A stretch of DNA of 64,000 nt from assembly GCA_001045525.1 (NCBI GenBank), contig LDWW01000009.1:62001-126000 (forward strand). Direction: 5' to 3'. The first letter of the stretch is position 1, and each line of letters starts with the position of its first letter. Below are positions 6,146 to 54,457 of the stretch, piece after piece. The notes under the pieces are model-generated. The model worked only from the letters and a program-made list of their open reading frames with translations. It was not told the origin of the DNA and searched no databases. Position numbers and translations under genes: made by a program. The DNA is from Chitinispirillum alkaliphilum (GTDB lineage: Bacteria > Fibrobacterota > Chitinivibrionia > Chitinivibrionales > Chitinispirillaceae).

Positions 6146-6155
6146 AGGCAAAAAA

Positions 6156-7358: not shown

Positions 7359-8640
7359 AATCATTTCTCATCGTAAGCAACTCCTTGGTGTCAGCTATTA
7401 TTTTGCGGCATCTTTGTTTAGTGCTTTAATCCATATTGTTTTGAATCCGTTTATTGCTTTAAATATGGAGCATAAAGACTATGCAATCACCGGTTTTTTT
7501 GCTTCGTTTGACAGTCTTCTCTCTCCTTTTATAGCATTTTCATTGGTAAATTATTACACCCGAAAATTTTTCCAATTAGGAGATGATGAACGTGGAAAAT
7601 TAAGAAATTCTATTGTACTGTCAACTGTAGTACTATCAGGAGGTATGTCTCTGGTTTCATTTGGGGGGTTATACACCTATTTTCGTTATACTGGCGTAAA
7701 CATTCCCTTCTACCCTTTTGCTCTAATGAGTATCACTTCGTTATTTATGAAGTGTTTCTATTCTTTATTGCTGGTAGATTTAAAAATGGGACGAAATGCT
7801 GCTAAGTTTTTTTGGATTAGTATCTGCCATGCTGTTTGTACTGCACTAATGTCGGTGGTGTTTGTTATTGTGCTGCAATGGGGTGCTTATGGTAAAATGC
7901 TTGGACTTATGCTTGGTTCTGTTATTTTTGGAATATATGCATTTTTTAAAACTCTTAGTAGCTTACAATTCGAAAAGAAATATTTGATACAATCTCTTGC
8001 GTTCTGTTGGCCCCTAACCATTGCTGCAATGCTCAATTATTTCTTTATGGGTGTGGACAGAATAATACTTGTTGGTTTAGATGACACAAGAAACCTTGGA
8101 CTTTACAATATTGCCGTCCTATTAACAGGGTATCTCGCTATTTTTGGGAATGCTTTAAGTAGCTCATTTCAACCTGATATCTTTAAATCAATAGCCGATA
8201 AGAAAAAGAAAAAAACGATCAAAATTATTGCTGGTCTTCTCCTGTTGAAATCGGTGCCTGTGGTTACGTTTATAATTTTTGCACCACTCTTAATACATGT
8301 TTTGACATTTGGTAGATTTTCTGAAGCGGCAGGGTTTGCAAGAATACTATCTTTAACAATACTTACAAGTGGTGCATATTTTGGTTTGTCATCAATACTT
8401 ATCGGTTATGGGTACTCAAAAGCAATATTGTTCATTAAGCTTGCAGGTTCAATACTTTCTGCTTTCATGTTTAAATATCTTATTGCTAATTATGGGTTTT
8501 ATGGGGCTGCATGGGGACAGGTGTGCTCTTTTTTGATTATCGTTTGTATCGGTACTGCGTTTGTTGCTATTTTGAAATCAAAGGAAATACTGGTCTACAC
8601 TATTAAACTCAGAAAAACTATATACAATCTAGATGAGTGA
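7336..8640 (+). CDS. Wzx-type oligosaccharide flippase (MOP superfamily)
   Basis: 434 residues, strongly hydrophobic, with about 12-14 predicted membrane helices distributed evenly and short basic loops. This is the layout of PST/Wzx lipid-linked oligosaccharide flippases, which move undecaprenyl-PP-linked repeat units across the inner membrane. Typical features include FFASFDSLLSPFIAFSL near the start and MLNYFFMGVDRIILVGL in the middle, where the family has a conserved charged R/D in helix 7. It starts at an ATG 23 bases inside the previous gene, so translation is probably coupled. The second Wzx gene in this window (55293-56609, minus strand) belongs to a separate locus. Confidence 0.85.
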   Translation: MFSKIKIRIISHRKQLLGVSYYFAASLFSALIHIVLNPFIALNMEHKDYAITGFFASFDSLLSPFIAFSLVNYYTRKFFQLGDDERGKLRNSIVLSTVVLSGGMSLVSFGGLYTYFRYTGVNIPFYPFALMSITSLFMKCFYSLLLVDLKMGRNAAKFFWISICHAVCTALMSVVFVIVLQWGAYGKMLGLMLGSVIFGIYAFFKTLSSLQFEKKYLIQSLAFCWPLTIAAMLNYFFMGVDRIILVGLDDTRNLGLYNIAVLLTGYLAIFGNALSSSFQPDIFKSIADKKKKKTIKIIAGLLLLKSVPVVTFIIFAPLLIHVLTFGRFSEAAGFARILSLTILTSGAYFGLSSILIGYGYSKAILFIKLAGSILSAFMFKYLIANYGFYGAAWGQVCSFLIIVCIGTAFVAILKSKEILVYTIKLRKTIYNLDE

Positions 8641-8733
8641 GTAAAAAAAGGCAAACTACTTTTGTAGAGAAACAGAATAAGGCTGTTGCAATCTTTGCGT
8701 TGAATTGAATAAGTTAAATGGGATACTTAGATT

Positions 8734-9657
8734 TTGAACAATAATAATTTTAAGCTCAATACATCTGTTTTATTCTTGGTATTTAACCGTCTTGGTACTA
8801 CCAAAAAAGTTTTTGAAGCAATCAAAAAAGCACAACCACCGAAGTTGTATCTGGCAGCAGATGGTCCTCGTAATGAAAAACTTGGTGAATACGAAATGGT
8901 TCAAGCTGTACGGGATTATTTATCCAATTCCATTGATTGGGATTGTGAGGTCAAAACCTTGTTTCGCGAAAAGAATCTAGGTTGTAAGCATGCTGTAAGC
9001 GATGCAATTAACTGGTTTTTTGACCATGAGGAGATGGGTATAATACTTGAGGATGATTGTTTGCCAAGTCAAAGCTTTTTCTGGTTTTGTGAAAACTTAT
9101 TGAAAAAGTATAAAGATGATAAAAGAATAGGAATGGTTAGTGGCTTTAATTATGGTATAGAAGATTGGAAATTTAGATATGATTATGTTTTTTCAAAATA
9201 TCCAATGATTTGGGGATGGGCAACTTGGAAAACTCGCTGGAAAAATTATTTAGAGGCATATGTTGATTATGATGAGATTGTTGCAACTAAACAATTGACT
9301 GAGATGTTTGGAAAAAATGAAGCCTCTCGGAGAATGAAACAGTTTGAAAATGCAAGGAGCGGAATTATTGATACGTGGGATTATGTTTGGGCATTATCGC
9401 TATATAAGAACTGTCAATTTACAATTATCCCGAAATTTAACTTGATAGAGAATGTTGGTTTCGGCCTTGATGCTACTCATACTACAGGTGTCTCAAAATT
9501 TGCAAAAATTAAAACGTCAGAAATCTCATTGCCTTTGATTCATCCTCCATACATTGTACAGGATCCAGATATATATAAGATCGTTTTCAATAAAACTAGC
9601 CTTCTAAAGAGGGTGTGCTACAAAGTAAGAAAAAAGATTTTTAGCTATGAAAAATAA
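8734..9657 (+). CDS. HlpA-like family 2 glycosyltransferase
   Basis: 307 residues. The N-terminus SVLFLVFNRLGTTKKVFEAI begins a GT-A fold; YLAADGPRN and then the acidic GIILEDDCLPS supply the nucleotide-sugar/metal site. The later MIWGWATWKTRW and DTWDYVWALSLY are typical of the glycosyltransferases annotated as hemolytic protein HlpA-like. It starts at TTG (8734), preceded by GGGAT at about 10 bases; no in-frame ATG exists nearby. The gene is very AT-rich. Expected to add one sugar to a lipid-linked intermediate; donor and acceptor are unknown. Its 3' end overlaps the radical SAM gene by 11 bases. Confidence 0.82.
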   Translation: MNNNNFKLNTSVLFLVFNRLGTTKKVFEAIKKAQPPKLYLAADGPRNEKLGEYEMVQAVRDYLSNSIDWDCEVKTLFREKNLGCKHAVSDAINWFFDHEEMGIILEDDCLPSQSFFWFCENLLKKYKDDKRIGMVSGFNYGIEDWKFRYDYVFSKYPMIWGWATWKTRWKNYLEAYVDYDEIVATKQLTEMFGKNEASRRMKQFENARSGIIDTWDYVWALSLYKNCQFTIIPKFNLIENVGFGLDATHTTGVSKFAKIKTSEISLPLIHPPYIVQDPDIYKIVFNKTSLLKRVCYKVRKKIFSYEK

Positions 9658-10786
9658 GGTACTCACTGTTTTATACTTCTGGAAGGGGTGTCTTAGACTT
9701 CTAAAAAGTTCTACTGTGTTCACAATTAAAGGAACCCGGAAAAGATATCCTAAAGTTATCCAGTTACCAATTACCTACCGCTGTAATGCCAAATGTGTTA
9801 TGTGTAACATTTGGAAAATGGATCACTCAAATGAAACTACTCTGGATGAATTCGGAGGGTTTATGAAAGATCCAATATTTAAAAAAGTTGAAGCTGTGGG
9901 AATTAATGGCGGAGAACCAACACTTTTACCAAACCTGGTGGAATATGCAGAAGAGATCATAAAGCTTCCATCACTAAAATCTCTAAATATCATTTCTAAT
10001 GGGTATAGCTCAAAGTTGTTATTTAAAAATGCTGAGAAGATCTATAAAGTATGTAAAGGAAAGGGTATAAAATTTCATATTTCCATATCATTGGATGGTG
10101 TCGGGGCTGTTCACAATGTTGTTAGAGGTGTACCTATTGCCTTTGAAAAAGTGATTGTGACTTTAGATGAACTTATTAAAAACAAACAAAAATATTGCGA
10201 TAGTTATGATATCGGGGCTACGATTGTTAATCAAAACATAAACCATCTTATAGAGCTGGATCAATATGCTAGGTGGAAAGGTTACAATATCAAATACCGG
10301 TTGGGTATTGAAAATAAAAGAATAGAGAGTAATAAACTTAATCACTCATACTCTGTCATACATGGACCCAATCGTCAAGGCGCTAAAGAGTTTTTTCATT
10401 ATCAAATGACTCAGGCAACTGATCTTGCTAGTCGCTTCAAATACTATTCTATTTTCTGCTGGCTGAATGACGATACACCTAAACGAAAACTTGGATGTGC
10501 ATGGAAAGAAGAGGGCGTTACGCTTGATGCAAAAGGTAACATTTACTACTGTGCTGTTGAGAGTGACTGTATAGGAACACTTCGGAATGGTAAAGGTGAA
10601 GAGATATTCTTCGATAAGAAAAATATTGAGTATAGAAAACACATCATAAAAAATCGTTGTAATAATTGTATTCACGACTATACTGGCAAACCTCAGTTTA
10701 TAAATGTGCTGTTATTTTTAGCTGATGTTATTAAGAATAGATTTGCTATGAACATTTATTTTGTAAAAGCAAGGTTTTTAAAATGA
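9647..10786 (+). CDS. Radical SAM/SPASM-domain protein in polysaccharide locus
   Basis: 379 residues. The radical SAM CxxxCxxC motif is at Cys46/50/53 (TYRCNAKCVMCNIW), followed by the GGEPTLL element (SAM amino binding) and the SLDGVG strand. The C-terminal third holds a SPASM-like cluster: GCAWKEEGVTLDAKGNIYYCAVESDCIG, quoted here in two parts as GCAWKEEGVT and YYCAVESDC, then NRCNNCIHDY. It should bind at least two Fe-S clusters. Such enzymes carry out radical modifications such as peptide crosslinks, epimerisation and dehydrogenation. A sugar substrate is inferred only from context. Its ends overlap the flanking genes (11 bases upstream, ATGA downstream), so it is an integral part of the operon. 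Confidence 0.9.
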   Translation: MKNKVLTVLYFWKGCLRLLKSSTVFTIKGTRKRYPKVIQLPITYRCNAKCVMCNIWKMDHSNETTLDEFGGFMKDPIFKKVEAVGINGGEPTLLPNLVEYAEEIIKLPSLKSLNIISNGYSSKLLFKNAEKIYKVCKGKGIKFHISISLDGVGAVHNVVRGVPIAFEKVIVTLDELIKNKQKYCDSYDIGATIVNQNINHLIELDQYARWKGYNIKYRLGIENKRIESNKLNHSYSVIHGPNRQGAKEFFHYQMTQATDLASRFKYYSIFCWLNDDTPKRKLGCAWKEEGVTLDAKGNIYYCAVESDCIGTLRNGKGEEIFFDKKNIEYRKHIIKNRCNNCIHDYTGKPQFINVLLFLADVIKNRFAMNIYFVKARFLK

Positions 10787-11925
10787 TAATAACAGTTTTG
10801 GGGTGGTATGGAACAGAAACAATAGGAGACAGAGGTATTCTTGCAGGGCTTATTTCCTTTTTTAATAGAGCTTATGGTTCTTTTGAATTAAAACTTGGAA
10901 GTTTATATCCATTTTTTAGCGACCGGACGATAAATGAGGATTACAGTTTATATAAAGAATTCACCGGTAAAGATCAAAAAATAGAAATATTTAATACAAA
11001 AAGATCAAAAGAACTCTTGAACGCCATATCATGTAGTGATTTAGTAGTTATGGGTGGTGGCCCTTTAATGGATCTTAATGAGCTTTTTATGATTGAATAT
11101 GCGATCAAAAAAGCAAAGAGGTATGGTATTAAGACTGCTCTTTTGGGTTGTGGAGTTGGTCCTTTGTTCCATAAAAAATACAGACAATCTGTTTTGGAAA
11201 TTGCCAAGAGTTGTGATATTGTTGTTTTGAGAGACAGTAAATCCAAAGAGAATTTGGCAGATATCTATAGAGAGTTTAAAGTTCCTTTTTGTAAAGAATT
11301 GGTTCTGACAAGTTATGATCCTGCAGTAGAATGTTGCTTGTTTTACCACCAACGTTATTCAGCAAACGCTCAAGACTATATAACTGTAAATTTGAGGGAT
11401 TTTCCCCGAGAGTACCTGGCGAATAAAGATATAGACATTAATGATGCATTGGTATGCTTTGTAAAAGATCTGGCTTTAAAGTATTCAGAAAAGGAAATAC
11501 GTTTAATACCCATGCATTACTTTCATATAGGTAATGATGATAGAGCGTTTTTGAATAAAATAGCAGTGACTTTGAATTTGCCAAATATCATGGTTCAGAA
11601 TGCGAACTTAACTCTCAAAGAAACTATGGAAACTTATCAAAATGCTTATTTTAATGTGGGAATGAGATTTCACTCCATAGTGTTCCAAACTATCACTAGT
11701 GGGAAAAATTATGTTCTCGACTATACGGAACCAGGAAAAGGCAAAATCAGTGGTTTTATAAGGGATATCGACACAACTGGGTTTTATGATGATAGGTATT
11801 TATCGCTTCAAGAACACATCGTTAGATCTACTATAATAAAAAACGAACATTCCCAATTTGAATTGCCTGAGAAAGACATGCGTAAAAGTTTGGATGTATA
11901 CAACGAAGTGTTAAGTAAGGTTTAG
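10783..11925 (+). CDS. Polysaccharide pyruvyl transferase family protein (second)
   Basis: 380 residues. Starts with MIITVLGWYGTETIGDRGI, the family's N-terminal glycine motif. DLVVMGGGPLMDLNE follows near residue 90, with LLGCGVGPL and VVLRDSKSKENL in the first lobe. NVGMRFHSIVFQTITSG near residue 290 is the conserved RFHS donor-side motif. Probably a PEP-dependent pyruvyl (ketal) transferase acting on a sugar of the polymer. It is not a close copy of the protein at 6156; the two share only the family motifs. It overlaps the radical SAM gene by ATGA, which suggests the two products work together. Confidence 0.87.
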   Translation: MIITVLGWYGTETIGDRGILAGLISFFNRAYGSFELKLGSLYPFFSDRTINEDYSLYKEFTGKDQKIEIFNTKRSKELLNAISCSDLVVMGGGPLMDLNELFMIEYAIKKAKRYGIKTALLGCGVGPLFHKKYRQSVLEIAKSCDIVVLRDSKSKENLADIYREFKVPFCKELVLTSYDPAVECCLFYHQRYSANAQDYITVNLRDFPREYLANKDIDINDALVCFVKDLALKYSEKEIRLIPMHYFHIGNDDRAFLNKIAVTLNLPNIMVQNANLTLKETMETYQNAYFNVGMRFHSIVFQTITSGKNYVLDYTEPGKGKISGFIRDIDTTGFYDDRYLSLQEHIVRSTIIKNEHSQFELPEKDMRKSLDVYNEVLSKV

Positions 11926-11928
11926 CAA

Positions 11929-13182
11929 ATGAGAATTATCACAGTAAGTTCCTCAGACATTAATGGCGGAGCAGCTCGGGCTGCTTATCGGCTTCACAGA
12001 TCACTTGTGACATCTGGTATCGAGAGTCGAATGCTTGTACAAAATAAAAGTAGCGATGACTATACTGTAACAGGTCCGCAAACAGTACTGAAGAAATGTG
12101 TAGCATATGCGCGCTCTGCAATAGGCAATCTACCTGTAAAGTTATATAGAAATAAAACCTCAACACCATATAGCTCTTCTTTGCTTGGTTTCAGTAATAT
12201 TGTAGAGAAAATAAACAGGCTAAGTCCAGATATTGTTCATCTTCATTGGATTTGTGGTGAAATGTTACCTGTACAGGATGTTGCTCGCATTAATGCGCCA
12301 GTGATTTGGAGTTTACATGACATGTGGGCTTTTACTGGTGGGTGCCATTACGATGTCGGATGTGGTTTGTTTGTAAAAGGGTGTGGTAATTGCAAAGTTC
12401 TTGGAAGCAACAAAGAGAACGATTTAAGTAGAAGTTCTTATAAACGAAAAAGAAAAGCATATTCTAAAATAAATAATCTTACTATTATTGGTTTGAGTAG
12501 ATGGCTTACAGAGTGTGCAATTAAAAGTGCCCTGTTGAGAAATGTAAAAATTATAAATCTACCAAACCCAATTGACTGCAGTGTTTTTAAAAAAGCCGAT
12601 AAAAGGTTTTCAAGGAGCCTTTGGAATCTACCTTCAGATAAAAAACTTGTTCTTTTTGGAGCAATGGGAGCTACGAGTGATAATCGCAAAGGCTACAAGG
12701 AGTTAAGCGAAGCGATAGCTAAGCTGGAAGATAAAACTGCTGAACTCGTTGTTTTTGGTAGCGGTAAGCCAAGAACTCAACCCAATTTCGGTTTTAAGAC
12801 ACATTATTTGGGTTGTTTGAATGATGAACCCAGCTTGGTGACTCTTTATAGCGCTGTTGATGTAATGGTTGTACCAAGTTTGCAGGAAAATCTCTCAAAT
12901 GCAATTATGGAAAGCCTTTCGTGTGGTACCCCTGTTGTTGCTTTTAATATAGGTGGTAATGGCGATATGATAGTTCACAAGCAAAATGGCTATCTTGCAA
13001 AACCTTTTAATACAACAGACCTTAAAGATGGCATCCAATGGGTTTTAAATGCACCAAACTATGATGAACTTTGTAAGAATGCCCGGGAGAAGGTGCTGAG
13101 GGAATTTGACAGCAATGTAGTTGCACAAAAATATATAGCTCTTTATAAAGAAATATTAAATAAAGAAGATGGTAAGGTATAA
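11929..13182 (+). CDS. Family 4 glycosyltransferase (GT-B)
   Basis: 417 residues. The N-terminal Rossmann domain begins MRIITVSSSDINGGAARAAY and contains DIVHLHWICGE and SLHDMWAFTGGCHYDVGC, with a small Cys pair (GCGLFVKGCGNC) common in this subgroup. The C-terminal GT4 domain has LVLFGAMGATSDNRKGY and the donor-binding EX7E region within VPSLQENLSNAIMESLSCGTPVVAF. The subgroup occurs widely in colanic-acid-like clusters. The acceptor is an undecaprenyl-linked glycan on the cytosolic membrane face. It begins 3 bases after the preceding stop and is followed without a gap by the next glycosyltransferase. Confidence 0.92.
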   Translation: MRIITVSSSDINGGAARAAYRLHRSLVTSGIESRMLVQNKSSDDYTVTGPQTVLKKCVAYARSAIGNLPVKLYRNKTSTPYSSSLLGFSNIVEKINRLSPDIVHLHWICGEMLPVQDVARINAPVIWSLHDMWAFTGGCHYDVGCGLFVKGCGNCKVLGSNKENDLSRSSYKRKRKAYSKINNLTIIGLSRWLTECAIKSALLRNVKIINLPNPIDCSVFKKADKRFSRSLWNLPSDKKLVLFGAMGATSDNRKGYKELSEAIAKLEDKTAELVVFGSGKPRTQPNFGFKTHYLGCLNDEPSLVTLYSAVDVMVVPSLQENLSNAIMESLSCGTPVVAFNIGGNGDMIVHKQNGYLAKPFNTTDLKDGIQWVLNAPNYDELCKNAREKVLREFDSNVVAQKYIALYKEILNKEDGKV

Positions 13183-14379
13183 GTGTCTGAAAATAAGGTG
13201 AAAAAAGAAGACGTGTGCAAAATAAAAGTCGCTCTCATCTTTCTTAACAGATCCGGTGGTACACTAAAGTGTTCAGTATTATTGGCAGAGTCTTTGTCTG
13301 AAATGGCAGAACTAAAGGCTTTTGTTTCAAGTGATGCTGACTGTGATATTTTAAAGAACCGGGCGTGTTTTACAAAAGTTACTACCGGAACCGGAAGAGC
13401 TAACAATTTTTTAAATACAATTAATCCCCTTAATTACTATCGAATCATACAAAAGATAAAATCATTTGATCCCGATGTAATACACTTTCCAATCGAGCAT
13501 GTTTGGAATTCTGTACTCTTCCTTGCTCTGAAAAAATATCCTGTTGTTCAGACTATTCATGATCCTGTTCGGCATTCCGGAGAGGGAAACCTGTTTTATG
13601 ATTATCTTAGGCATCTGGCAATACAACGAGCAGACAGAATTATTGTACTTAGCAAACAATTTGAAAGGTCATTTGAAAGATTCGGAATTAAATCAGATGA
13701 TATAGATGTAATCCCACATGGTAGCTTTGCATTTGACAGAGAAATCTCTGAGCCACCTTTAAAAAGGCAAGTCCTGTTTGCGGGAAGAATCAATAAATAT
13801 AAGGGTCTTGATGTACTGCTCAAGGCTTTTGCTATTATGCAGCATTCCATTCCGGGTGCTTCATTGATAATAGCAGGTAAAGGTGATGTAGAACCGTATC
13901 GCCACTTATTAGATAAGGTTAACAATGTAACCCTGATAAACAGATATGTAACGGAAGAAGAATTAAGAGAATTACATTCTGATTGCGATTTTGTCGTTGT
14001 TCCTTATATCGATGCTTCACAGAGTGGGGTAATTGCTGTTGCTGCCGCAAATGGGAGAGCTGTTATAAGCTCTGATGTTGGGGGTTTAAGTGAACAGATT
14101 GTTGATGGGAAAACAGGTTTTTTGGTTGAAAAAAGCAACCCGCAAATCCTGGCCGATAAAATTATGACGCTACTGAATAATGACAATCTGATTCTAACGA
14201 TGGGTAAGAATGCCCGCCAATTCTTTCGCGAAAAATATTGTTGGGAAGTCATATCACGGAGAACTAAAGAAACGTGTACTAAATCGATAGAAAATCATAG
14301 GGCCAACTCCCGTAAAAACAGATTAATTTTGCTGTTGTCCGCTGGAAAAAATTTGGTGGTAGAAAAGCTTAGTAAATAG
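13183..14379 (+). CDS. Family 4 glycosyltransferase (GT-B)
   Basis: 398 residues from a GTG immediately after the previous stop codon (zero-base gap). N-terminal lobe: IKVALIFLNRSGGTLKCSVLL, FDPDVIHFPIEHVW and QTIHDPVRHSG. C-terminal GT4 lobe: QVLFAGRINKYKGLDVLLKAF, SLIIAGKGDVEPY and the donor site VVPYIDASQSGVIAVAAANG, leading to VGGLSEQIVDGKTGFLV. The usual first Glu of the EX7E motif is replaced by residues of ASQSG, as in several bacterial GT4 enzymes. Specific sugar unknown. An inner-membrane-associated cytosolic enzyme of repeat-unit assembly. Confidence 0.92.
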   Translation: MSENKVKKEDVCKIKVALIFLNRSGGTLKCSVLLAESLSEMAELKAFVSSDADCDILKNRACFTKVTTGTGRANNFLNTINPLNYYRIIQKIKSFDPDVIHFPIEHVWNSVLFLALKKYPVVQTIHDPVRHSGEGNLFYDYLRHLAIQRADRIIVLSKQFERSFERFGIKSDDIDVIPHGSFAFDREISEPPLKRQVLFAGRINKYKGLDVLLKAFAIMQHSIPGASLIIAGKGDVEPYRHLLDKVNNVTLINRYVTEEELRELHSDCDFVVVPYIDASQSGVIAVAAANGRAVISSDVGGLSEQIVDGKTGFLVEKSNPQILADKIMTLLNNDNLILTMGKNARQFFREKYCWEVISRRTKETCTKSIENHRANSRKNRLILLLSAGKNLVVEKLSK

Positions 14380-14422
14380 TAAGATTATCAAAAAATCGTA
14401 AATTATAGGAATTATGTGAGAT

Positions 14423-15430
14423 ATGACAGAAGCAAACCAAAATGTGACTGGTGAACACATATGTCTTAATAGTGAGTTCAGTACAACAAGAGCTGTTACC
14501 AGACAAAGACCAATAATCTTTAATAAACCTGAAGAACAGTTTGAATCTGCACTGTTCATTTCAAATGGTGATAGTCCAACTCAAGTAGGTGGATTACGTA
14601 CTAAAGGGTATTTTAAGAGCAGTCTGCCAGGTAAGCCTCTCATTACAGTTGTTACAGTTGTTTTTAATGGAAAAAAACATTTTGAAGAGGCTCTTTTAAG
14701 TGTATTGGGACAAACGTATGATAATGTTGAGTATATAATTATTGATGGTGGCAGCACAGATGGAACTCTTGATATCATTCATGAACATGAACATGCTATC
14801 GATTACTGGGTGAGTCAAAAAGATGCCGGTATTTATGACGCTATGAACAAGGGTATCGGATTGGCGACCGGTGAGTTTATCGGCCTTGTTAATGCAGATG
14901 ATCTGATCTATCCCAAGACATTGAAAAATTTGTCTGGTATCATTCAAAAGAATTCACAGATCCAATATACCTATGGTAAAGTGAATTTTGCCAATGATGA
15001 GGGGGTTGTTTATGGAAGCAGTTCCCCACTCTCAAAAGAACTTGCAGTTGCCAGGCGTTTCAAAGAGATGCCCTATCCACATCTTTCTGTATTTGTTGCA
15101 AAAGATGCATATAAAAAAATTGGTAGGTTTAATACTCTGTTTAAGCTTGGTGCTGATTACGATTTTATTCTCCGTATGATACATAATAACTTGGTTGGTG
15201 AGAGACTTCCCGGGACTGTCGGGGTATTTAGGGCTGGGGGCCAGAGTGGAGGATTAAAAACATACATTGAATCCAGACGTATCCATTGTAATCATGGAAT
15301 TTCTCCATTAAAGCGAGAAATGAACTTCATTGGTTCGATTCTAAAGATGAGCATGTTTAGGGTATTACCAATATCGGTAGTTCGTATTCTTAAAAGAATT
15401 CCAAGAACATCAAAAAACTCATATAGTTGA
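14423..15430 (+). CDS. Family 2 glycosyltransferase with N-terminal extension
   Basis: 335 residues. The GT-A core starts only at about residue 72 (PLITVVTVVFNGKKHFEEAL) and continues with YIIIDGGSTDGTLDII and the metal-site GLVNADDLIYP. The preceding 70 residues are low in recognisable features apart from GGLRTKGYFKSS directly before the core, a linker seen in related enzymes. WVSQKDAGIYDAMNKG is characteristic of a GT2 subgroup found in capsule and colanic-acid (WcaA/WcaE-like) loci. The start ATG at 14423 follows a purine-poor leader; a later start cannot be excluded since no Met lies between residues 2 and 140. Donor unknown. Confidence 0.88.
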   Translation: MTEANQNVTGEHICLNSEFSTTRAVTRQRPIIFNKPEEQFESALFISNGDSPTQVGGLRTKGYFKSSLPGKPLITVVTVVFNGKKHFEEALLSVLGQTYDNVEYIIIDGGSTDGTLDIIHEHEHAIDYWVSQKDAGIYDAMNKGIGLATGEFIGLVNADDLIYPKTLKNLSGIIQKNSQIQYTYGKVNFANDEGVVYGSSSPLSKELAVARRFKEMPYPHLSVFVAKDAYKKIGRFNTLFKLGADYDFILRMIHNNLVGERLPGTVGVFRAGGQSGGLKTYIESRRIHCNHGISPLKREMNFIGSILKMSMFRVLPISVVRILKRIPRTSKNSYS

Positions 15431-15518
15431 AGGATGCGTTTGGTAAGTGCACGAATTAGTAGGCACAAATGATCGTCAAATCAGTTATTAACACCCAAAA
15501 TCCAGCGATGGTGATTAA

Positions 15519-16787
15519 ATGTCCGATGCCTTAACATTTATCTGTATCTATTTATTATTGGGTAAATTAGCCTTGGTAGTGATATCAAGAGTTAAGCCAA
15601 TCAGTGTTAAGGAAATGAATGTATTTACTTTGGCACTTCTGTTCAGAATCAGTTTAACTTATTTGTATTGGATGTTTTCTCTTACCGGTTCAGCTGATGC
15701 CCGGATGTATTTCAATTTTGCTCAATTTGGGGAATTCAATTTACAGCGTATGGTTTTTAACCCTGGTACTGAGTCTGTTCGGCATTTTACAGCCTTCTTT
15801 TACCCAATTGTACGAATTTTTGAAAACCAATATTTAATGACCTATATACCATTTTCGCTTCTGGGTTTTGTGGGTTCGATACTTTTTTACATGGTATTGA
15901 AACCATATTTCAATCAAAAAAAAGGTAAAAGAGAACTTTATATACTTGTATTCTTCCTTCCTAACCTTGTATTCTGGACAAGTAATATCGGTAAGGATTC
16001 ACTGGTATATTTCGGTTTGTCACTGGTGATTTACGGTTCACAGCTGAGTAAGTTTTCAGTAAAGCAGGTTGTAAGTATCGGTATTGGGTGTATTGTATCT
16101 TATTATGCCCGGCCACATCTTATTATGTTTTTAATGTTCGGGTTTGGAGCTGGTTTGTATCTTGAAAAATCCAGGTTCTCATTTAAAAATATCGCTGTTT
16201 TTGGTCTAATAATGTTATCATTTTTTATACTTCATCAAAGGCTGTTTCAATTAGCCGGTATCAGATTAGATGAACCTACAGAACAAACTTACGAGTACGA
16301 AGGTAGGGGCGGTGCTGGAGTCGGGGATTATTTCGAGGCTGGAATCGATCGTCTTGACAGAAGTGCTGAGAATCTGAGCATAGGCGGCTCTGCAACTGGA
16401 CCAAGAAGGTTTAATCTTATAATGGCTCCCTTGTATATAATAGAGTTTATCTGCAGCCCGTTTATTTGGCAGGCACGAACACCGATTCAATTACTTGCTG
16501 CTCTCGAGAGTCTGATTTATCAATTTATGCTTCTATACCTACTCTGGAACTGGAAACTGTTCGGAAAACCGCATTATGTTAAGTATAAATTCTGTTTGGT
16601 AATGTACATATTGATAATGGGGGTCCTTCTGGGCGCGGCACAAACTAACTTTGGGCTTACTGTGCGGCAAAAGTGTATGGTCCTTCCATTTCTGATTCTA
16701 AATTTCAGTAGTGTCCGGCAATATAAAAAAGAGCATAAAGTAAAGAAAAAAATTAAAGCTAAACCAGTTCCGGTTAATGTGCTATGA
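15519..16787 (+). CDS. Multi-pass membrane protein, candidate Wzy polymerase
   Basis: 422 residues with roughly 9-11 hydrophobic segments. After two N-terminal helices comes SGSADARMYFNFAQFGE-type sequence (TGSADARMYFNF near residue 60), and later NLVFWTSNIGKDSLVYFG near residue 150. Sequences of this kind occur in membrane proteins of exopolysaccharide loci that are taken as Wzy/EpsG-like polymerases or GT-C-like enzymes. A large acidic, Gly-rich loop follows residues 250-290. No other polymerase candidate lies in the 3.5-21.4 kb locus, which strengthens the inference. Wzy proteins have little sequence conservation, so the role is a hypothesis. Its stop overlaps the next start (ATGA). Confidence 0.55.
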   Translation: MSDALTFICIYLLLGKLALVVISRVKPISVKEMNVFTLALLFRISLTYLYWMFSLTGSADARMYFNFAQFGEFNLQRMVFNPGTESVRHFTAFFYPIVRIFENQYLMTYIPFSLLGFVGSILFYMVLKPYFNQKKGKRELYILVFFLPNLVFWTSNIGKDSLVYFGLSLVIYGSQLSKFSVKQVVSIGIGCIVSYYARPHLIMFLMFGFGAGLYLEKSRFSFKNIAVFGLIMLSFFILHQRLFQLAGIRLDEPTEQTYEYEGRGGAGVGDYFEAGIDRLDRSAENLSIGGSATGPRRFNLIMAPLYIIEFICSPFIWQARTPIQLLAALESLIYQFMLLYLLWNWKLFGKPHYVKYKFCLVMYILIMGVLLGAAQTNFGLTVRQKCMVLPFLILNFSSVRQYKKEHKVKKKIKAKPVPVNVL

Positions 16788-17941
16788 AAAAAATCGTATT
16801 TGTTACAACATTGCCGCAGACCGTGTTCTTTCTTTTGGGAGAGCATATTGAGTATTTAAAGGCAAAGGGATACTCTGTTGAAGTGATAACTTCAAAGGGG
16901 ATATGGCTTAATAGTGATCAGATTGCAGAGAAGTTTAATATCCCTGTACATACTGTGAGTTTTACGAGAACAATTACTCCGGTAAAAGATTTAAAGTGTA
17001 TGTTTAAGCTGATTATTCTGTTTTTAAAGCTAAGGCCTGATATTCTCCACGTCAGTACTCCTAAAGCATCGATTCTTGCGATTGTTGCCGCATTCCTTAC
17101 CGGTGTAAAAAATCGGATTTATACTGTACGGGGCTTAGTCTATTTGTCGCCTAAAAATAAGGTGTTGCCGGTTATGTTTTTAATTGAATTTATCGCTTGT
17201 CGCCTTGCAACAAAAGTGTTGGCTGTCAGTGATTCCAACAGGAAACTTCTGTTTAAACATAAACTGTGTAATAGTAAAAAAATAGAAGTACTTGGAAATG
17301 GAAGCAGTCATGGTGTAGATGCTTCAGAGCGGTTTAATCCCGCTCGTTTTGAAAAGGAAAGAGTTGCAACTTTCAGAGAGAGCATTGGTCTTAGAAAAAA
17401 CAGTGTTGTTTTTGGGTTTGTAGGAAGACTTGTAAAAGATAAAGGGATTGAGGATTTTGCCTGTGCATGGGAAATGTTTACAAAAAAGTACTCTGATGCT
17501 GAACTGGTCATCATTGGGCCATCTGTTGAACCCCGGGATTGTATCTCGAATGAGTGCTTTGAGTTTCTCAAGTTAAGAAAAGATGTCCATTTCTTTTTTG
17601 ATATTACCGATCCGGTAGAATATTACACTGTTATGGATGTTTTTGTACTTCCATCGTATCGGGAAGGATTCCCGAATGTAGTATTGGAAGCTGGAGCAAT
17701 GTGCGTTCCTGTAATAACATCTAACGCCCCGGGGTGTATCGATTCTGTTTTAGACAATGAGACTGGTTTAATAACAAGTGTCGGGGATCCTGCGTTACTT
17801 TGTCAAAAAATGGAGATTCTTTACTCAAATCCGCATTTGCGAAAGCAATTTGGTGATAATGCCAGAAAACGAGCACTGGAACTGTTTTCGCCAGAGCTGA
17901 TCTGTAATCTTCAGGAGAAGCTATACAGGGAGCTTATATGA
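16784..17941 (+). CDS. Family 4 glycosyltransferase, PglA/CapM-like
   Basis: 385 residues. N-terminal lobe: KIVFVTTLPQTVFFLLGEHI, LRPDILHVSTPKASILAIVA and RIYTVRGLVY, a pattern typical of the PglA/CapM/WcaL-like GT4 group that adds an N-acetylhexosamine early in repeat-unit synthesis. C-terminal lobe: VVFGFVGRLVKDKGIEDFA, LVIIGPSVEPRD and the EX7E donor site in PSYREGFPNVVLEAGAMCVP. It overlaps both neighbours by ATGA. If the CapD/WbpM-like dehydratase at 19480 supplies a UDP-diacetamido-sugar, this protein is a reasonable candidate for using it; that link is inference. Confidence 0.92.
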   Translation: MKKIVFVTTLPQTVFFLLGEHIEYLKAKGYSVEVITSKGIWLNSDQIAEKFNIPVHTVSFTRTITPVKDLKCMFKLIILFLKLRPDILHVSTPKASILAIVAAFLTGVKNRIYTVRGLVYLSPKNKVLPVMFLIEFIACRLATKVLAVSDSNRKLLFKHKLCNSKKIEVLGNGSSHGVDASERFNPARFEKERVATFRESIGLRKNSVVFGFVGRLVKDKGIEDFACAWEMFTKKYSDAELVIIGPSVEPRDCISNECFEFLKLRKDVHFFFDITDPVEYYTVMDVFVLPSYREGFPNVVLEAGAMCVPVITSNAPGCIDSVLDNETGLITSVGDPALLCQKMEILYSNPHLRKQFGDNARKRALELFSPELICNLQEKLYRELI

Positions 17942-49296: not shown

Positions 49297-51903
49297 ATGT
49301 TTCTTAAGATCGTGTCAGTGTGCGCCTTGGTTGCCATGAGCGTTTCTGTTCATGCTGCTGACTTTGCTTTTCCATCTCACATGCCTCCCGGAGGAAAGAG
49401 TCCAAGTGAGGTAAATCAGTACATTGTCTTCAATTTTGACGACAATGCGTATTCCGGGTTGTCCGGAACCCAGTTTGAACCGGACCCAAGGGTTGTAAGT
49501 AATCCTACTTGGCAGCAACAGGGATTTGTGGGACAGCAGGATGCAGCCTGTGGTCTTAGTATTGAGGCTGGGGAAATGGGTATGTCCTGGGCTTTAAGTA
49601 CTCTCGCTGGTGGTCAGGCTGATCCTGGTTATCCGACTTTTGATGCAGGTACAGAGTATCCGCCCAGCACTATAGTTGAATTTCAGGGTACATTGTACCA
49701 GTCAAACAGATGGGTTCACGGTAGTGAGGGTAATCCCCAGGTAAACACATCAGGCTGGGAAAATCGAGGCCCTGCATCTACCGGTGGCGGCAGCCGCTCA
49801 AGAACCAATCCCGACGGTTCAAACATCAGGTTTACTTTCAGTATGCTGTCAGGTCTCTTTGTAGACACCTGGGGTAGAGAGTGGGAATCGAGAGAAAGTA
49901 AGTTCGGGTATTTTGTTCCTTCACCCAGTGAAAGCAGAGATCACGACAGAATTGCAGTTTCCTGGGGTAGGGAGATGGGTATCGGTTCCAGTCAGGGTTC
50001 TACCGACATTCAGCCAAACCAGCTTGTTGCTGTGGTAAAGCAGGCTATTGAAGCTGGGCATGAAATTGCAGACCATACTATCGACCATATGGAGAGTAAC
50101 TCTCCGCTTCCAGGTGACAGTCCATTACACAATAGCACCTGGAACCAGGAGATGGGTTTTGGCAGATGGGGTAACGAAGGGTTCAACGCCACAGATGAAA
50201 ACGTAACTCCATGGGGTACTTTTCGCGAATCTGAGCATTTCGGTCAGCCTGTAGGGCATACGGCCCAGACTCGTGGCTGGACAATGTATGCGGGTAGATT
50301 TATCTCTCAGAACGCCTGGGAAGGGGCTCTCGCGCTCTCACTTGAACAGTATGACACCTATCTTTCAGGAACTCCCGGTTATACCCGTCCTGTAGGTTTC
50401 AGAGCTCCTCGTCTGGAGGGTAACTCAGCCATGCTTTATGCATTGAAGGCTCAGGGGTACCTCTACGACTGCTCTGTTGAAGCCGGGTATGAGCCTAACA
50501 TGGATGGTACAAATGCACCATGGCCATTCACCACAGATAATGGTATACCTAATAAGGCATATCAGATCAGTGCCGGCTGGGGTACAACACATTGTACTGA
50601 GAATAGACACCATGGTCATCCATATGATTCAGCTCCTGCAGGACTGTGGCAGCTTCCTGTACAGGTAATGGTTGTTCCCGAGAATCTGCGTGATCAGGTT
50701 TGGGTTAACCATGCACGTATCAGATCTGCTTCACCAGACGGTCAGTTCAGAAATGCTCAGGATTCACTGGATACATACAATTCATTCATAGATGGTGGTA
50801 AGATCACAGGATTTGACTTCAACATGCTCATCCTTTGGGGTATGACTGGACACACATGGCTTGAAACCATGAAACACAACCTCGAATTGAGGATGAACAA
50901 CAACAAGGCACCTCTTCTTTACGGTGCTCACACAGATTACTATACTCCAATATACGACCATGCTACACTGTTGGAAGATTTTAATAGATCTTCTTACGGT
51001 CTTGTGGTAACAGAGGGCTGGAACACCTGGGTCGACCGCAGGGATGCAATGGAAGAATTTGTTGACTGGGCAGTTCAACGGGGTGCTTACTTTGTGGATG
51101 GTGTAACTCTGATCGAAAAAATCAGAGAAATGCAGCAGAATGAAGAGGTTGGTGACGCAGGTGATTTCATGTATACATGGCAATTCCAGGGTGATGATCT
51201 TGGTACCACTACTTCAGCTCAGTCATTTTCTGGTAGTCTCGACAATGCAACGGTTTCAATCGGTGCAAGACAGGGAGAAGCCTGGCCAAACCCTGCATAC
51301 AGAAGTACATTCAATGCTGGTCATCTCGAAGGTTTGACTCATATCTCTCTTGATTACCAGACAACAGCTCCGATATCACTGAGACTGGTAAGACCTAACG
51401 GTGATGCCTGGGAAGTTATTCTCTCCAACATGGCAAGACGCACTATACAAAGTGGTCTTATCCCTGTAAGCGCTTTTCAGCGTGACTGGTATGCAGAGCA
51501 CAATGATCCTCTCGATCTTTCTGAGATCACATACCTTGAAGTTAAGCTGATCAACGCAGGTCGTGAGCAGGAACAGCATACTTTAAGTCTTGGAAATATC
51601 AAAGTCTACGGTGCAGAAAACGTAAGCGTTGCTTCAACACCAAGATCTGTAAGAAGCGGTGCGATTGAGCTGCGTTCAATCTCCAATAATGCTCTGAGCC
51701 TTAACATTCCTCAGTCCGGCAGATACACTGTAAGTGTTATCTCCGCAAACGGTAGAGTTGTTAAAACTTTCAACAACGCCGACCTGACTGCAGGAATCAA
51801 CACTCTTAGCATAGACAGAGGTCTTTCAAGAGGTGTATACATGATCAGAATCAATGAGCGTGGTGCTGATACTCAGAAAGTACTGAGAGCAACCGTTCTT
51901 TGA
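49297..51903 (+). CDS. Secreted polysaccharide deacetylase with inserted chitin-binding-like module and T9SS sorting domain
   Basis: 868 residues. Signal peptide about 1-20 (ALVAMSVSVHAA). The NodB-type metal site is split. Motif 1, FNFDDNAYSG, is near residue 47. The H-x4-H motif, AGHEIADHTIDHME, is near 255. GFRAPRLEG near 368 gives the R-x-P element. Between them, about 110-160, lies a CBM5/12-like segment (GTEYPPSTIVEFQGTLYQSN, then W-E-N-R-G), the type that binds chitin. A CBM-like beta-sandwich follows at about 630-775. The C-terminal 80 residues form a T9SS type A sorting domain (SGRYTVSVISANGRVVKTF, then GLSRGVYMIRINERG). Probably deacetylates chitin or another N-acetylated glycan outside the cell. 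Confidence 0.85.
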   Translation: MFLKIVSVCALVAMSVSVHAADFAFPSHMPPGGKSPSEVNQYIVFNFDDNAYSGLSGTQFEPDPRVVSNPTWQQQGFVGQQDAACGLSIEAGEMGMSWALSTLAGGQADPGYPTFDAGTEYPPSTIVEFQGTLYQSNRWVHGSEGNPQVNTSGWENRGPASTGGGSRSRTNPDGSNIRFTFSMLSGLFVDTWGREWESRESKFGYFVPSPSESRDHDRIAVSWGREMGIGSSQGSTDIQPNQLVAVVKQAIEAGHEIADHTIDHMESNSPLPGDSPLHNSTWNQEMGFGRWGNEGFNATDENVTPWGTFRESEHFGQPVGHTAQTRGWTMYAGRFISQNAWEGALALSLEQYDTYLSGTPGYTRPVGFRAPRLEGNSAMLYALKAQGYLYDCSVEAGYEPNMDGTNAPWPFTTDNGIPNKAYQISAGWGTTHCTENRHHGHPYDSAPAGLWQLPVQVMVVPENLRDQVWVNHARIRSASPDGQFRNAQDSLDTYNSFIDGGKITGFDFNMLILWGMTGHTWLETMKHNLELRMNNNKAPLLYGAHTDYYTPIYDHATLLEDFNRSSYGLVVTEGWNTWVDRRDAMEEFVDWAVQRGAYFVDGVTLIEKIREMQQNEEVGDAGDFMYTWQFQGDDLGTTTSAQSFSGSLDNATVSIGARQGEAWPNPAYRSTFNAGHLEGLTHISLDYQTTAPISLRLVRPNGDAWEVILSNMARRTIQSGLIPVSAFQRDWYAEHNDPLDLSEITYLEVKLINAGREQEQHTLSLGNIKVYGAENVSVASTPRSVRSGAIELRSISNNALSLNIPQSGRYTVSVISANGRVVKTFNNADLTAGINTLSIDRGLSRGVYMIRINERGADTQKVLRATVL

Positions 51904-51941
51904 TAAAATGTGTACTGATGACTGATAGTATCGATTGACTT

Positions 51942-51974
51942 AAAGGACGGTTTGAATTCCAGAACCGTCCTTTT
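51942..51974 (+). terminator. Rho-independent terminator after the first deacetylase gene
   Basis: Perfect 11-bp stem AAAGGACGGTT (51942-51952) and AACCGTCCTTT (51963-51973) with a 10-base loop, closed by T-residues. It lies 39 bases after the stop codon and separates the two deacetylase genes into independent transcripts. Confidence 0.85.
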
Positions 51975-52057
51975 GTGTCGGAAAAGATCAGCATTTAGGA
52001 ATTATCCGGTTTAAAGCCATAGCTTGTACAAATAAAGAGAGATTGAAAGGAGGACTG

Positions 52058-52085
52058 TTGACATCCTAAGTTTTTGAAGTACATT
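52058..52085 (+). promoter_or_regulatory. Candidate sigma-70 promoter of the second deacetylase gene
   Basis: TTGACA (52058-52063, perfect) with a 16-bp spacer and TACATT (52080-52085, 4/6). It lies 60 bp before the start codon at 52145 and just downstream of the preceding terminator, so a promoter is expected here. Confidence 0.5.
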
Positions 52086-52144
52086 TTGTATTTATAGTTT
52101 AACTTTTTAATGACCTGACAATCAAGCTTTTTAGAGGAGGTATG

Positions 52145-54397
52145 ATGAAGGGTGCAAAAATATTGACATTGTTGCTTGCGGCCGGGATGGTTGCGGGTGC
52201 CTTTGCTCAAAACTACAGAAACAGAGGCGTATGGGATCCTACTGAGGTGTATGAGGGATCCTACAGACTCGGTACAGGTGATACTGTACAATACGGTACT
52301 TTCCCACCTGATGATCCAAACGGAGCACCACTTTACTGGTGGGCAAAATGGTGGACTCAGGGAGAAACTCCGGGTGAATTTGCCGCTCGTGGTGGAACAT
52401 CGCCCTGGGTAATGATCAATTCTGCATCCATGCCCGGTGGACAGTACAACTGGGTGGGATGGAACGGACAGCTCGAAAACACCCTTAGCCCGGGTGAAGC
52501 AGTAGTTCCTACCTGGAAAGATGGTGCAGAGGGTGCCTACACACTAATCCATGATGACATCGGTGCACTGCGTTGGGATCTTGATATCCAGCCCGGTCTT
52601 GATGTGCTTGCTGATTTCCCGCAGGTTAAAACTGCATGGGGTGTGTTTGTACAGCCGGCTACCCAGGATGAATGGGATGGTATGATGCAGATGACTATCG
52701 ATGGTCACGAAATGGTTAACCACTCATGGAACCATACCAATGCTGCTGAGCAGTGGCTCTGGTATAACCCGGGTGAAAGAATTCCGCCTGCAGAAGTTGT
52801 TGTTCCGCGTACTCTTACCGGTTTGACAGTTGATCCGCTGTGGCCGCCTTCTTCTGTGGATGGAAATCCTACATGGCCGAACCCGGACCAGTTTACTGTA
52901 GAGAATAATGTCGTGGAGGTTACTTTTGGTCCTACATACTGGACCGGATATGATCCTTCCACAAGTGAACCTCTGACTATGACTGTAACACCAAAACCTG
53001 GTGCGGAAAAGGTAACTCTTCCTACCGGTATGGAAGTATGGGTTCTTTACACCAAAAAAGATACTCTCACCGGAGAGAATGAAGGTTACGTTGCTCCTAC
53101 AGGAGCAAACTGGATGGAACTTGACTTTCTTGAGGAACATTTCCCTGAAAGAGTCAACTCAGTAGTTAGAAATGACCTGGGAAGACCTGGTTGGGTTTGT
53201 ATGCTTCACCTGACAGATCCATGGGATGAGGCTGACATCGACTCTAACGTTGTGTTGAGTAAGAATATTATCGATGAGCAGGTATACGACAGAATCAGAG
53301 CCACCGGTGGATTCGGTCCTTACTTTGCACCGAACAAATCCACTGAATACTATGTCTACCCTTATGACTCATACTCAGAAGAAAGTCACGGATGGCTTGA
53401 GGCCGCAGGATATGTTGGTGCACGTGGTGGTGCAAAATCAGGTGAACCAATGCCCGGTGATTTCTTCCATCCATATGCTATCGATTATGATGCATTCTAC
53501 ATCTACGGCGGTGACACTTCCAATGTGATTAATGCCGGTGGTAACAACCCTCACCAGCTGCTTTCACTCGATGGTATGGTAACCGCAATTCTTGAAACTA
53601 ACGGATACATGATCCGTGAGCTTCACTCTGTTAATATCGTTGAGGACTGGAAAAACATCAACGACCCTCTACACGACGGATGGTGGGGTGGTATTCCCAA
53701 TGACCTGTACAGAGATCACATCGAGTGGATTGATGGTCTTATAACTCAGAACAGACTCGCTGTGCTTACTCCTTCTGAAGCTGTTAAATACCGTATGGTT
53801 GCAAATGCAGTTACAGGTGTGAACATGTCACAGTCCGGAAGTGAGTACAGACTCACCGTTAATGCAGATAATATTGCTGATAAGTACAAAGATGAAATCT
53901 CTGTTATTGTCAGACTTAACAATGGTGTAGAAAAGCTTGCAACCGAGTATGTTAACGGTGAACAGCAGCTTGCCGGTGCTACATGGGAAAAATGGCCAAG
54001 AATGGCTCCGCGTAAGCTCGATGCTGCCGGAACTGCATGGTCTGTAAGTATCAACCCATATCTTGGTGAACTGAAACTTCTTCCAAATCAGGATCACGAA
54101 GGTGGTATCAGAGACGATGTATCTGTAGCCCGCGGAACAAGAAACAGTGCCGCTCTTAGTGGTGCAGCTTTCCTTGGAATGCAGAACAATCAGATTTCTC
54201 TAAGACTTCCTGCAGGAAACTATGAGGCTGCAATCTACAACCTCAATGGTCAGGTAGTTAGAAACATCTCTCTTACCTCCGAAGGTGGTATTGTAAGAAC
54301 ATCAATGGATGCTTCCATCAGCAGAGGTCTCTATCTCCTCAGAGTTAGAAATCAGGCTGGTGATGTTGCATTACAGAGCAGAATCATGTTGAAATAA
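52145..54397 (+). CDS. Secreted polysaccharide-deacetylase-like protein with T9SS sorting domain
   Basis: 750 residues from the second of two adjacent ATGs, with GAGGAGG 5 bases upstream. Signal peptide about 1-19 (LTLLLAAGMVAGAFA). NodB-type features: the Asp pair in LIHDDIGAL near residue 136 and the H-x4-H element in GHEMVNHSWNHTN near 187. An insertion of about 90 residues (Pro/Trp-rich, beta) follows the second motif. YVYPYDSYSEESHGWLEAAGY resembles the family's later strand. The C-terminal 75 residues are a T9SS type A sorting domain (GNYEAAIYNLNGQVVRNISL, then ISRGLYLLRVRNQAG). The motif spacing is irregular, so activity is less certain than for its neighbour, from which it may derive by an old duplication. 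Confidence 0.8.
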   Translation: MKGAKILTLLLAAGMVAGAFAQNYRNRGVWDPTEVYEGSYRLGTGDTVQYGTFPPDDPNGAPLYWWAKWWTQGETPGEFAARGGTSPWVMINSASMPGGQYNWVGWNGQLENTLSPGEAVVPTWKDGAEGAYTLIHDDIGALRWDLDIQPGLDVLADFPQVKTAWGVFVQPATQDEWDGMMQMTIDGHEMVNHSWNHTNAAEQWLWYNPGERIPPAEVVVPRTLTGLTVDPLWPPSSVDGNPTWPNPDQFTVENNVVEVTFGPTYWTGYDPSTSEPLTMTVTPKPGAEKVTLPTGMEVWVLYTKKDTLTGENEGYVAPTGANWMELDFLEEHFPERVNSVVRNDLGRPGWVCMLHLTDPWDEADIDSNVVLSKNIIDEQVYDRIRATGGFGPYFAPNKSTEYYVYPYDSYSEESHGWLEAAGYVGARGGAKSGEPMPGDFFHPYAIDYDAFYIYGGDTSNVINAGGNNPHQLLSLDGMVTAILETNGYMIRELHSVNIVEDWKNINDPLHDGWWGGIPNDLYRDHIEWIDGLITQNRLAVLTPSEAVKYRMVANAVTGVNMSQSGSEYRLTVNADNIADKYKDEISVIVRLNNGVEKLATEYVNGEQQLAGATWEKWPRMAPRKLDAAGTAWSVSINPYLGELKLLPNQDHEGGIRDDVSVARGTRNSAALSGAAFLGMQNNQISLRLPAGNYEAAIYNLNGQVVRNISLTSEGGIVRTSMDASISRGLYLLRVRNQAGDVALQSRIMLK

Positions 54398-54427
54398 TTT
54401 AATTTTGATGTGACGATGTGAATTGTG

Positions 54428-54457
54428 GGCCTCCGATCAATGACGGAGGCCTTTTTT
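54428..54457 (+). terminator. Rho-independent terminator after the second deacetylase gene
   Basis: Perfect 8-bp GC-rich stem GGCCTCCG (54428-54435) and CGGAGGCC (54444-54451), 8-base loop, followed by TTTTTT. Thirty bases after the stop codon. Confidence 0.92.

Follow-up and report, generated by a model that had tools for sequence, protein, structure and literature searches.

The stretch of DNA analyzed here, called the window in the following, comprises 64,000 nucleotides of Chitinispirillum alkaliphilum (contig LDWW01000009.1, positions 62,001 to 126,000). At positions 49,297 to 54,397 it contains two genes, P1 and P2, which are codirectional according to the coordinates of their open reading frames (ORFs) and are predicted to encode secreted deacetylases of the CE4 (NodB) family. 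This report deals with the unusual arrangement of their domains, in particular with a segment resembling a family 5/12 carbohydrate-binding module (CBM5/12) that lies inside the catalytic domain of P1. The genes, the elements of their catalytic domains and their CBM5/12-like or inserted segments are listed in window coordinates.

49297..51903, + strand: P1, predicted secreted CE4-type deacetylase, 868 amino acids (ORF; family profile match to insect chitin deacetylases)
49438..49443, + strand: P1 motif 1, D48-D49, catalytic base and metal ligand (D48 in 18/18, D49 in 17/18 aligned relatives)
49606..49794, + strand: P1 inserted CBM5/12-like module, about residues 104-166, between helix alpha-1 and strand beta-2 (alignments, profiles, model)
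50074..50088, + strand: P1 motif 2, H260-T-I-D-H264 (H260 in 17/18, H264 in 18/18)
50398..50418, + strand: P1 motif 3, RAPRL (R369 and P371 both in 18/18)
50929..50931, + strand: P1 motif 5 histidine H545, presumed catalytic acid (16/18 relatives)
52142..54397, + strand: P2, predicted secreted CE4-type deacetylase, 751 amino acids (ORF; model matches CE4 structures)
52223..52420, + strand: P2 N-terminal CBM5/12-like module, about residues 28-93, with AKWWTQG at 68 (hhalign with a family profile)
52553..52558, + strand: P2 motif 1, D138-D139 (13/13 relatives)
52721..52735, + strand: P2 motif 2, H194-S-W-N-H198 (13/13 relatives)
52751..53179, + strand: P2 insert after motif 2, about residues 204-346, predicted to be beta-rich (alignment, model)
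53624..53626, + strand: P2 motif 5-like histidine H495 (13/13 relatives)

Judged from their sequences, P1 and P2 are CE4 enzymes with complete active-site residues. A preliminary description of the region had assigned to both proteins an Asp-Asp motif 1, which is present, and an H-x4-H element, in place of which both histidine pairs turned out to be H-x3-H, i.e. H(S/T)xxH. Loss of metal ligands, which that description had named as evidence that would speak against it, was looked for and not found, as P1 and P2 themselves retain every metal and catalytic residue that was checked. Among the P2-type proteins, H443 is replaced by Q in one of 13 and all other checked residues are kept in 13/13; motif 4 of P1 was not assigned with confidence. 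In single-sequence searches P1 and P2 matched the NodB family PF01522 with 17.6 and 19.7 bits respectively, both below the cut-off of 23.1. A profile of P1 and its relatives from the same genome (A1, 13 rows, P2 among them) matches the insect chitin deacetylases 5zns (1e-29) and 5z34 (1.7e-28), and a profile of P1-type proteins only matches 5zns with an E value of 3.9e-5. The model of P2, with a mean predicted local distance difference test score (pLDDT) of 71.6, has ten matches to CE4-type structures with Z 14.2-16.4, the best being 7fbw (Z 16.4, root mean square deviation (rmsd) 2.8, 184 aligned residues). Because these 184 residues span a range of 420, the modelled barrel of P2 is discontinuous around its insert. 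In P1 the catalytic domain is extended after motif 1, after strand 2 and after motif 2; these three extensions, which the preliminary description had missed, are present with variable length in all 18 aligned members of the family and should face the active-site side.

Some members of the P1 family are degenerate. In a P1-type protein of another genome (L044:1159-3921, + strand), D49 and H260 are both replaced by N and H545 by F, and this protein is probably no longer a metal-dependent deacetylase. The genome of C. alkaliphilum itself contains a second P1-type protein on contig C16 (L013:6610-10815, - strand), which is 85% identical to P1 over residues 18-779, has MBG repeats and a C-terminal domain unlike that of P1, and shows N at the motif 5 histidine. 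Together with the two putative CBMs of P1, such relatives could suggest that one of the two proteins has no catalytic role and is a chitin-binding adhesin of the cell surface with a degenerate CE4 fold. This is very unlikely given that P1 and P2 keep all checked residues and that, apart from the single Q at H443, the same holds for all 13 P2-type proteins.

The segment inserted in P1 sits between helix alpha-1 (GMSWA) and strand beta-2 (TFNMISG), which places it between motifs 1 and 2, as had been claimed. In an alignment of 18 P1-type proteins (A2) this loop has 74-141 residues in 8 proteins and 8-23 in the other 10. Left out of A2 were L041/L046 (split; G026 contig C174, with an in-frame TAA), L043 (at a contig edge), L039/L059 (C-terminal part) and L045 (partial). 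A further homolog, L077, also has the insert, so that 9/19 distinct P1-type proteins carry the module and 10/19 do not. The insert-free relatives run uninterrupted across the site with no other change nearby. The distance from D49 to H260 is 211 residues in P1, compared with 58-86 in ten further P1-like deacetylases that this genome encodes (taken from A1, with P2 and the C16 copy excluded), and the C16 paralog carries the same insert as P1. Because ten of the 19 distinct relatives cleanly lack the module at the same site, it is a separable, optional cassette in the helix-1/strand-2 loop, and the idea that it is inserted into the catalytic domain of P1, without the usual linker, is borne out. 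On the tree, the insert label needs 3 changes among the P1-type proteins, and a single origin of the insert may be compatible with it.

That the P1 insert is a CBM5/12-type module is indicated by comparison at the level of the family. P1 alone (phmmer) matches the chitin-binding domain 2rts over residues 111-160 with an E value of 0.036, and CBM_5_12 is the sole Pfam family matched by the segment. The insert of L036, at the same site, reaches 34.1 bits with CBM_5_12, above the cut-off of 26.2. A profile of the inserts (A4) matches 2rts (9.1e-6) and residues 300-361 of the Vibrio deacetylase 4nz1 (0.0017); the two top rows of this search, SAKe proteins, are sums of weak repeats. When A4 was compared by hhalign with a profile of seven CBM5/12-like domains of the same genome (A10, five over the Pfam cut-off and two under), the probability was 96.1 (P 3.5e-9), whereas 40 column shuffles gave a maximum probability of 0.5. 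Profile-profile scores were 49-50 for the P1 insert and the P2 N-terminus, whereas the 40 column shuffles made for each reached no more than 12-14, which excludes chance as a source of these CBM calls. In the P1 model the insert forms three strands (126-129, 132-136 and 154-159; block pLDDT about 70-78).

It could be objected that the segment is an enlarged NodB loop that resembles CBM5/12 by its content of Trp, Tyr, Gly and Pro without binding chitin, since the match of P1 itself is sub-threshold (15.7-16.1 bits) and four of the 8 inserts scanned (L026, L029, L031 and L038) have no Pfam match. Such a loop is unlikely to explain the L036 insert over the cut-off at the same site, a profile match far above shuffles that preserve composition, the three modelled strands, or the 10/18 aligned relatives without the segment in which the nearby sequence is unchanged.

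The preliminary description had further suggested that the inserts could position the active site on crystalline chitin, which the place of the insertion in P1 does not support. In a beta/alpha barrel, the loops leading from helix to strand lie on the face opposite the active site, which is found at the C-terminal ends of the strands. For an insect CE4 homolog the active site is described at the top centre of the barrel (PMC6463723). Since helix-to-strand loops lie at the barrel bottom and the CE4 active site at the top, the insert site of P1 should face away from the active site, and the module is likelier to be a two-point tether than a part of the cleft. The P1 model (mean pLDDT 62) is too uncertain in its core for measuring the placement of the module relative to the active site.

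The insert of P2 does lie near the active-site loops after motif 2, but it is of another kind. The Pro/Trp-rich segment that had been noted there is present, with a length of about 143 residues instead of the proposed 90 or so, and its beta-rich character (about eight strands, block pLDDT 45-93), like the three strands of the P1 module, comes from structure prediction, which in the case of P1 left the core at low confidence. It is recognisable in 11 of the 13 P2-type proteins, with L049 being long and divergent and L059 short, and is a family-wide feature. It is not a CBM5/12 module (hhalign probability 0.1, inside the shuffled range), and a search of Pfam and a profile search of PDB returned nothing significant for it. 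A search with profile A6, which omits L049 and L059 (2/13 P2-type proteins) and includes a copy on contig C45, found the insert in 6/167 genomes; G027 and G034, whose P2-type proteins are not part of A6, gave no match. The C45 copy (65% amino acid and 69% DNA identity over 372 bases) stands at the C-terminus of an InlB-type repeat protein (TIGR02543; G000 C45, L014:7666-8895, - strand), and the homology ends just before the stop codon. The presence of this copy in an InlB-repeat protein suggests that the P2 insert can exist outside the barrel; alternatively, the copy may be a truncated second P2 or the product of a misjoined contig. In L051, one more CBM5/12-looking segment was seen by eye within the P2-insert region; it has no Pfam CBM match.

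P2 has a putative CBM5/12-like domain elsewhere, at its N-terminus, which had been overlooked. Its family profile was compared with the CBM5/12 domains of the same genome by hhalign and gave a probability of 96.4 (P 1.4e-9), with 0/40 shuffles near this value. A single-sequence Pfam search gave only 8.8 bits, a search of the profile against PDB gave no significant match, and the direct comparison with the P1-insert profile was weak (probability 18); the domain is thus classified as CBM5/12-like by profile only. In another CE4 paralog of the genome (L015:6397-8337, + strand), a weak CBM5/12-like segment (13.2 bits, at about residue 440) is found in the usual place after the catalytic domain.

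Outside their catalytic domains, P1 and P2 contain the following features, of which the beta-sandwich of P1 is likewise new with respect to the preliminary description.

49297..49359, + strand: P1 signal peptide, about residues 1-21 (translation inspected by eye, signal-peptide-like)
51145..51615, + strand: P1 CBM11/CBM29-like beta-sandwich, about residues 617-773 (structure match to 1v0a)
51661..51900, + strand: P1 type IX secretion system (T9SS) type A sorting domain, about residues 789-868 (TIGR04183, 28.1 bits; 8glk_D match)
52142..52207, + strand: P2 signal peptide, about residues 1-22 (translation inspected by eye, signal-peptide-like)
54158..54394, + strand: P2 T9SS type A sorting domain, about residues 673-751 (TIGR04183, 27.7 bits; structural matches)

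The second beta-sandwich of P1 aligns with 1v0a over 142 residues (VIA-align Z 13.0, rmsd 2.8). The proposed secretion of both proteins agrees with their N-termini, and the sorting domains were recovered on both above the TIGR04183 cut-off of 23 bits. Structure comparison matches the sorting domain of P1 with the T9SS substrate domain 8glk_D (Z 10.5, rmsd 1.8, 73 aligned) and that of P2 with 8qb1_A and 8gl6_D (Z about 8). The T9SS gene SprA is found in the C. alkaliphilum genome with 446.9 bits, together with its neighbours. With a sorting domain over the cut-off in each and SprA in the genome, P1 and P2 fit T9SS type A cargo.

C. alkaliphilum ACht6-1, a bacterium of soda lakes, is described as an anaerobe that attaches to insoluble chitin, its exclusive growth substrate, and that has GH8 enzymes carrying sorting domains (PMC4814513). 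The genome has no match to PF03067, the family searched for chitin lytic polysaccharide monooxygenases (LPMOs); this absence fits an obligate anaerobe, and because of it a route via deacetylases is given more weight. We consider that P1 and P2 are probably two unlike cell-surface deacetylases of chitin or partly deacetylated chitin, with a CBM cassette in P1. The T9SS would anchor the exported proteins on the outer membrane, and their CBM5/12 modules would hold them on chitin, that of P1 having two points of attachment to the barrel, probably at its back or side and not at the active-site mouth. The CE4 metal site would then remove acetyl groups from insoluble chitin by the usual mechanism, the beta-rich insert beside motif 2 of P2 probably shaping the substrate cleft, and the surface-deacetylated chitin would be handed to cell-linked GH8 hydrolases and other enzymes.

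As the CE4 family also holds peptidoglycan and other deacetylases and the nearest structures to P2 are those of an acetylxylan esterase, PelA and PgdA (7fbw, 9cgy and 2c1i), it might be supposed that the substrate of the two enzymes is not chitin but the peptidoglycan of the cell itself or a different surface polysaccharide. This is improbable in view of the CBM5/12-like modules on both proteins, the sorting domains, which should place both outside the outer membrane and so at a distance from peptidoglycan, the grouping of P1 with insect chitin deacetylases, and the growth of the organism on chitin only.

Several other points weigh against P1 and P2 as chitin deacetylases with a CBM cassette in P1. 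An acetylated glycan other than chitin could be the substrate. The match of P1 to PF01522 is under the cut-off, as is that of its own CBM segment to CBM_5_12 (about 16 bits against 26.2). The clearest CBM5/12 domains of the genome have R-W-W where P1 has R-W-V, and the WW pair of these domains has a role in ligand binding. Among the Foldseek and VIA matches listed for the P1 model with its low-confidence core there is no CE4 structure; the best 50 matches of each search are mostly CBM11/29-like and sorting domains and are uninformative on CE4, and the fifth match of the VIA search aligns residues 5-590 with an archaeal virus turret (8qpg, Z 10.8, rmsd 3.2, 201 aligned). Finally, the N at H545 in the C16 paralog suggests that some family members may be inactive.

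A wider proposal, which we regard as unlikely, is that in obligate anaerobes confined to insoluble chitin a pair of surface deacetylases with chitin-binding modules, one of these modules lying within the catalytic domain, opens crystalline chitin without an LPMO, the resulting chitosan-like surface chains being cut by GH8-type enzymes of the same cell, and that the P1 loop is a reusable docking slot in which the module was gained or lost several times.

Among known systems, the Vibrio chitin oligosaccharide deacetylases (DA1/VcCDA, VpCOD) are CE4 enzymes like P1, and the segment of 4nz1 matched by the P1-insert profile is C-terminal (300-361 of 419 residues), in a position which we take to be after the catalytic domain, whereas that of P1 is internal; there is also no T9SS domain. 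The insect enzymes BmCDA1 and BmCDA8 (5ZNS and 5Z34) share with P1 the CE4 barrel, the Asp-Asp and H(S/T)xxH motifs and the R-A-P of motif 3, but lack a T9SS domain and, over the stretch that was aligned, any CBM between alpha-1 and beta-2. They are described as having a long open cleft and a loop insertion between beta-5 and alpha-5, and Asp206 and His261 of BmCDA1 are 55 residues apart compared with the 211 from D49 to H260 of P1 (PMC6463723).

A literature search of titles and abstract openings found no CBM inserted inside a CE4 domain and two close cases. BoPDA from Bacteroides ovatus, like P1, combines CE4 with a chitin-binding-like beta-sandwich by insertion and not by a linker, the CBM being likened to a chitin-binding domain of Pyrococcus furiosus; in the inverse of P1, however, CE4 is inserted in the CBM, the metal dyad is His-Asp, and a role in capsule synthesis is proposed (PMC11713874). 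The CE20 esterases XacXaeA and Fl8CE20_II also have a beta-sandwich inserted in a discontinuous catalytic domain, and this domain is described as present in only some family members and as varying more than the catalytic part does; they are SGNH hydrolases in which the ancillary domain is part of the active site, while the site in P1 should be remote (PMC12313940). The domain arrangement of P1 is real and uncommon, while the enzyme family to which it belongs is a known one. On crystalline chitin, most chitin deacetylases are described as highly inactive, fused CBMs bringing a slight gain (PMC5855634). P1 and its natural module-free relatives offer a ready-made comparison for asking whether rigid placement of a CBM helps on a crystalline surface, and are also relevant to the question of how crystalline chitin is opened by anaerobes that have no LPMOs. 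Should the module do no more than raise affinity, it is a modest addition to the known CE4 domain architectures.

P1-type genes were found in 8 of the phylum's 167 genomes, and P2-type genes in exactly these 8. The listed 20 other genomes of the family of C. alkaliphilum (f1) gave no match, and the other seven positive genomes belong to families f2, f3 and f5, a scattered distribution that is compatible with transfer or loss. A scan of contigs from 84,980 species with two peptide patterns, which is insensitive to distant relatives, yielded 16 loci, all in metagenome-assembled genomes (MAGs). Eleven of them are titled Fibrobacteres/Fibrobacterota, Fibrobacter or Chitinivibrionia, four 'bacterium isolate bin_47' and one Draconibacterium, the latter from the same SulCav sample series. 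A search of plasmids gave one weak match. In the MAG record WRFX01, four P2-type genes lie close together on one contig (L081:153-12034).

Because the only significant BLASTP alignment between P1 and P2 covers their sorting domains, the two are not close paralogs. Two terminator-like hairpins accompany the genes.

51942..51973, + strand: terminator-like hairpin in the gap between P1 and P2, with a T-rich stretch after it (-21.2 kcal/mol, z -3.88)
54427..54452, + strand: terminator-like hairpin downstream of P2 (9 pairs, 7 of them G-C, followed by a T run)

None of 200 shuffles folds as well as the hairpin between the genes, and its presence weakens the case for a P1-P2 operon. Promoter-like sites in the P1/P2 region show no excess over shuffled sequence. 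On contig C60 of G034 the C-terminal fragment of a P1-like protein precedes a P2-like gene, so that the two types may have kept their adjacency; for the remaining six genomes, the listed P1-type and P2-type matches lie on separate contigs.

The GC content of P1 (0.476) and P2 (0.469) compares with a mean over 46 window ORFs of 0.429 (standard deviation 0.046), and their third-position GC is ordinary; base composition thus makes no case for a recent horizontal acquisition of the two genes. Elsewhere in the window, a run of codirectional ORFs at 4991-17938 has a GC content of 0.33-0.39, compared with about 0.45 for most of the remaining window.

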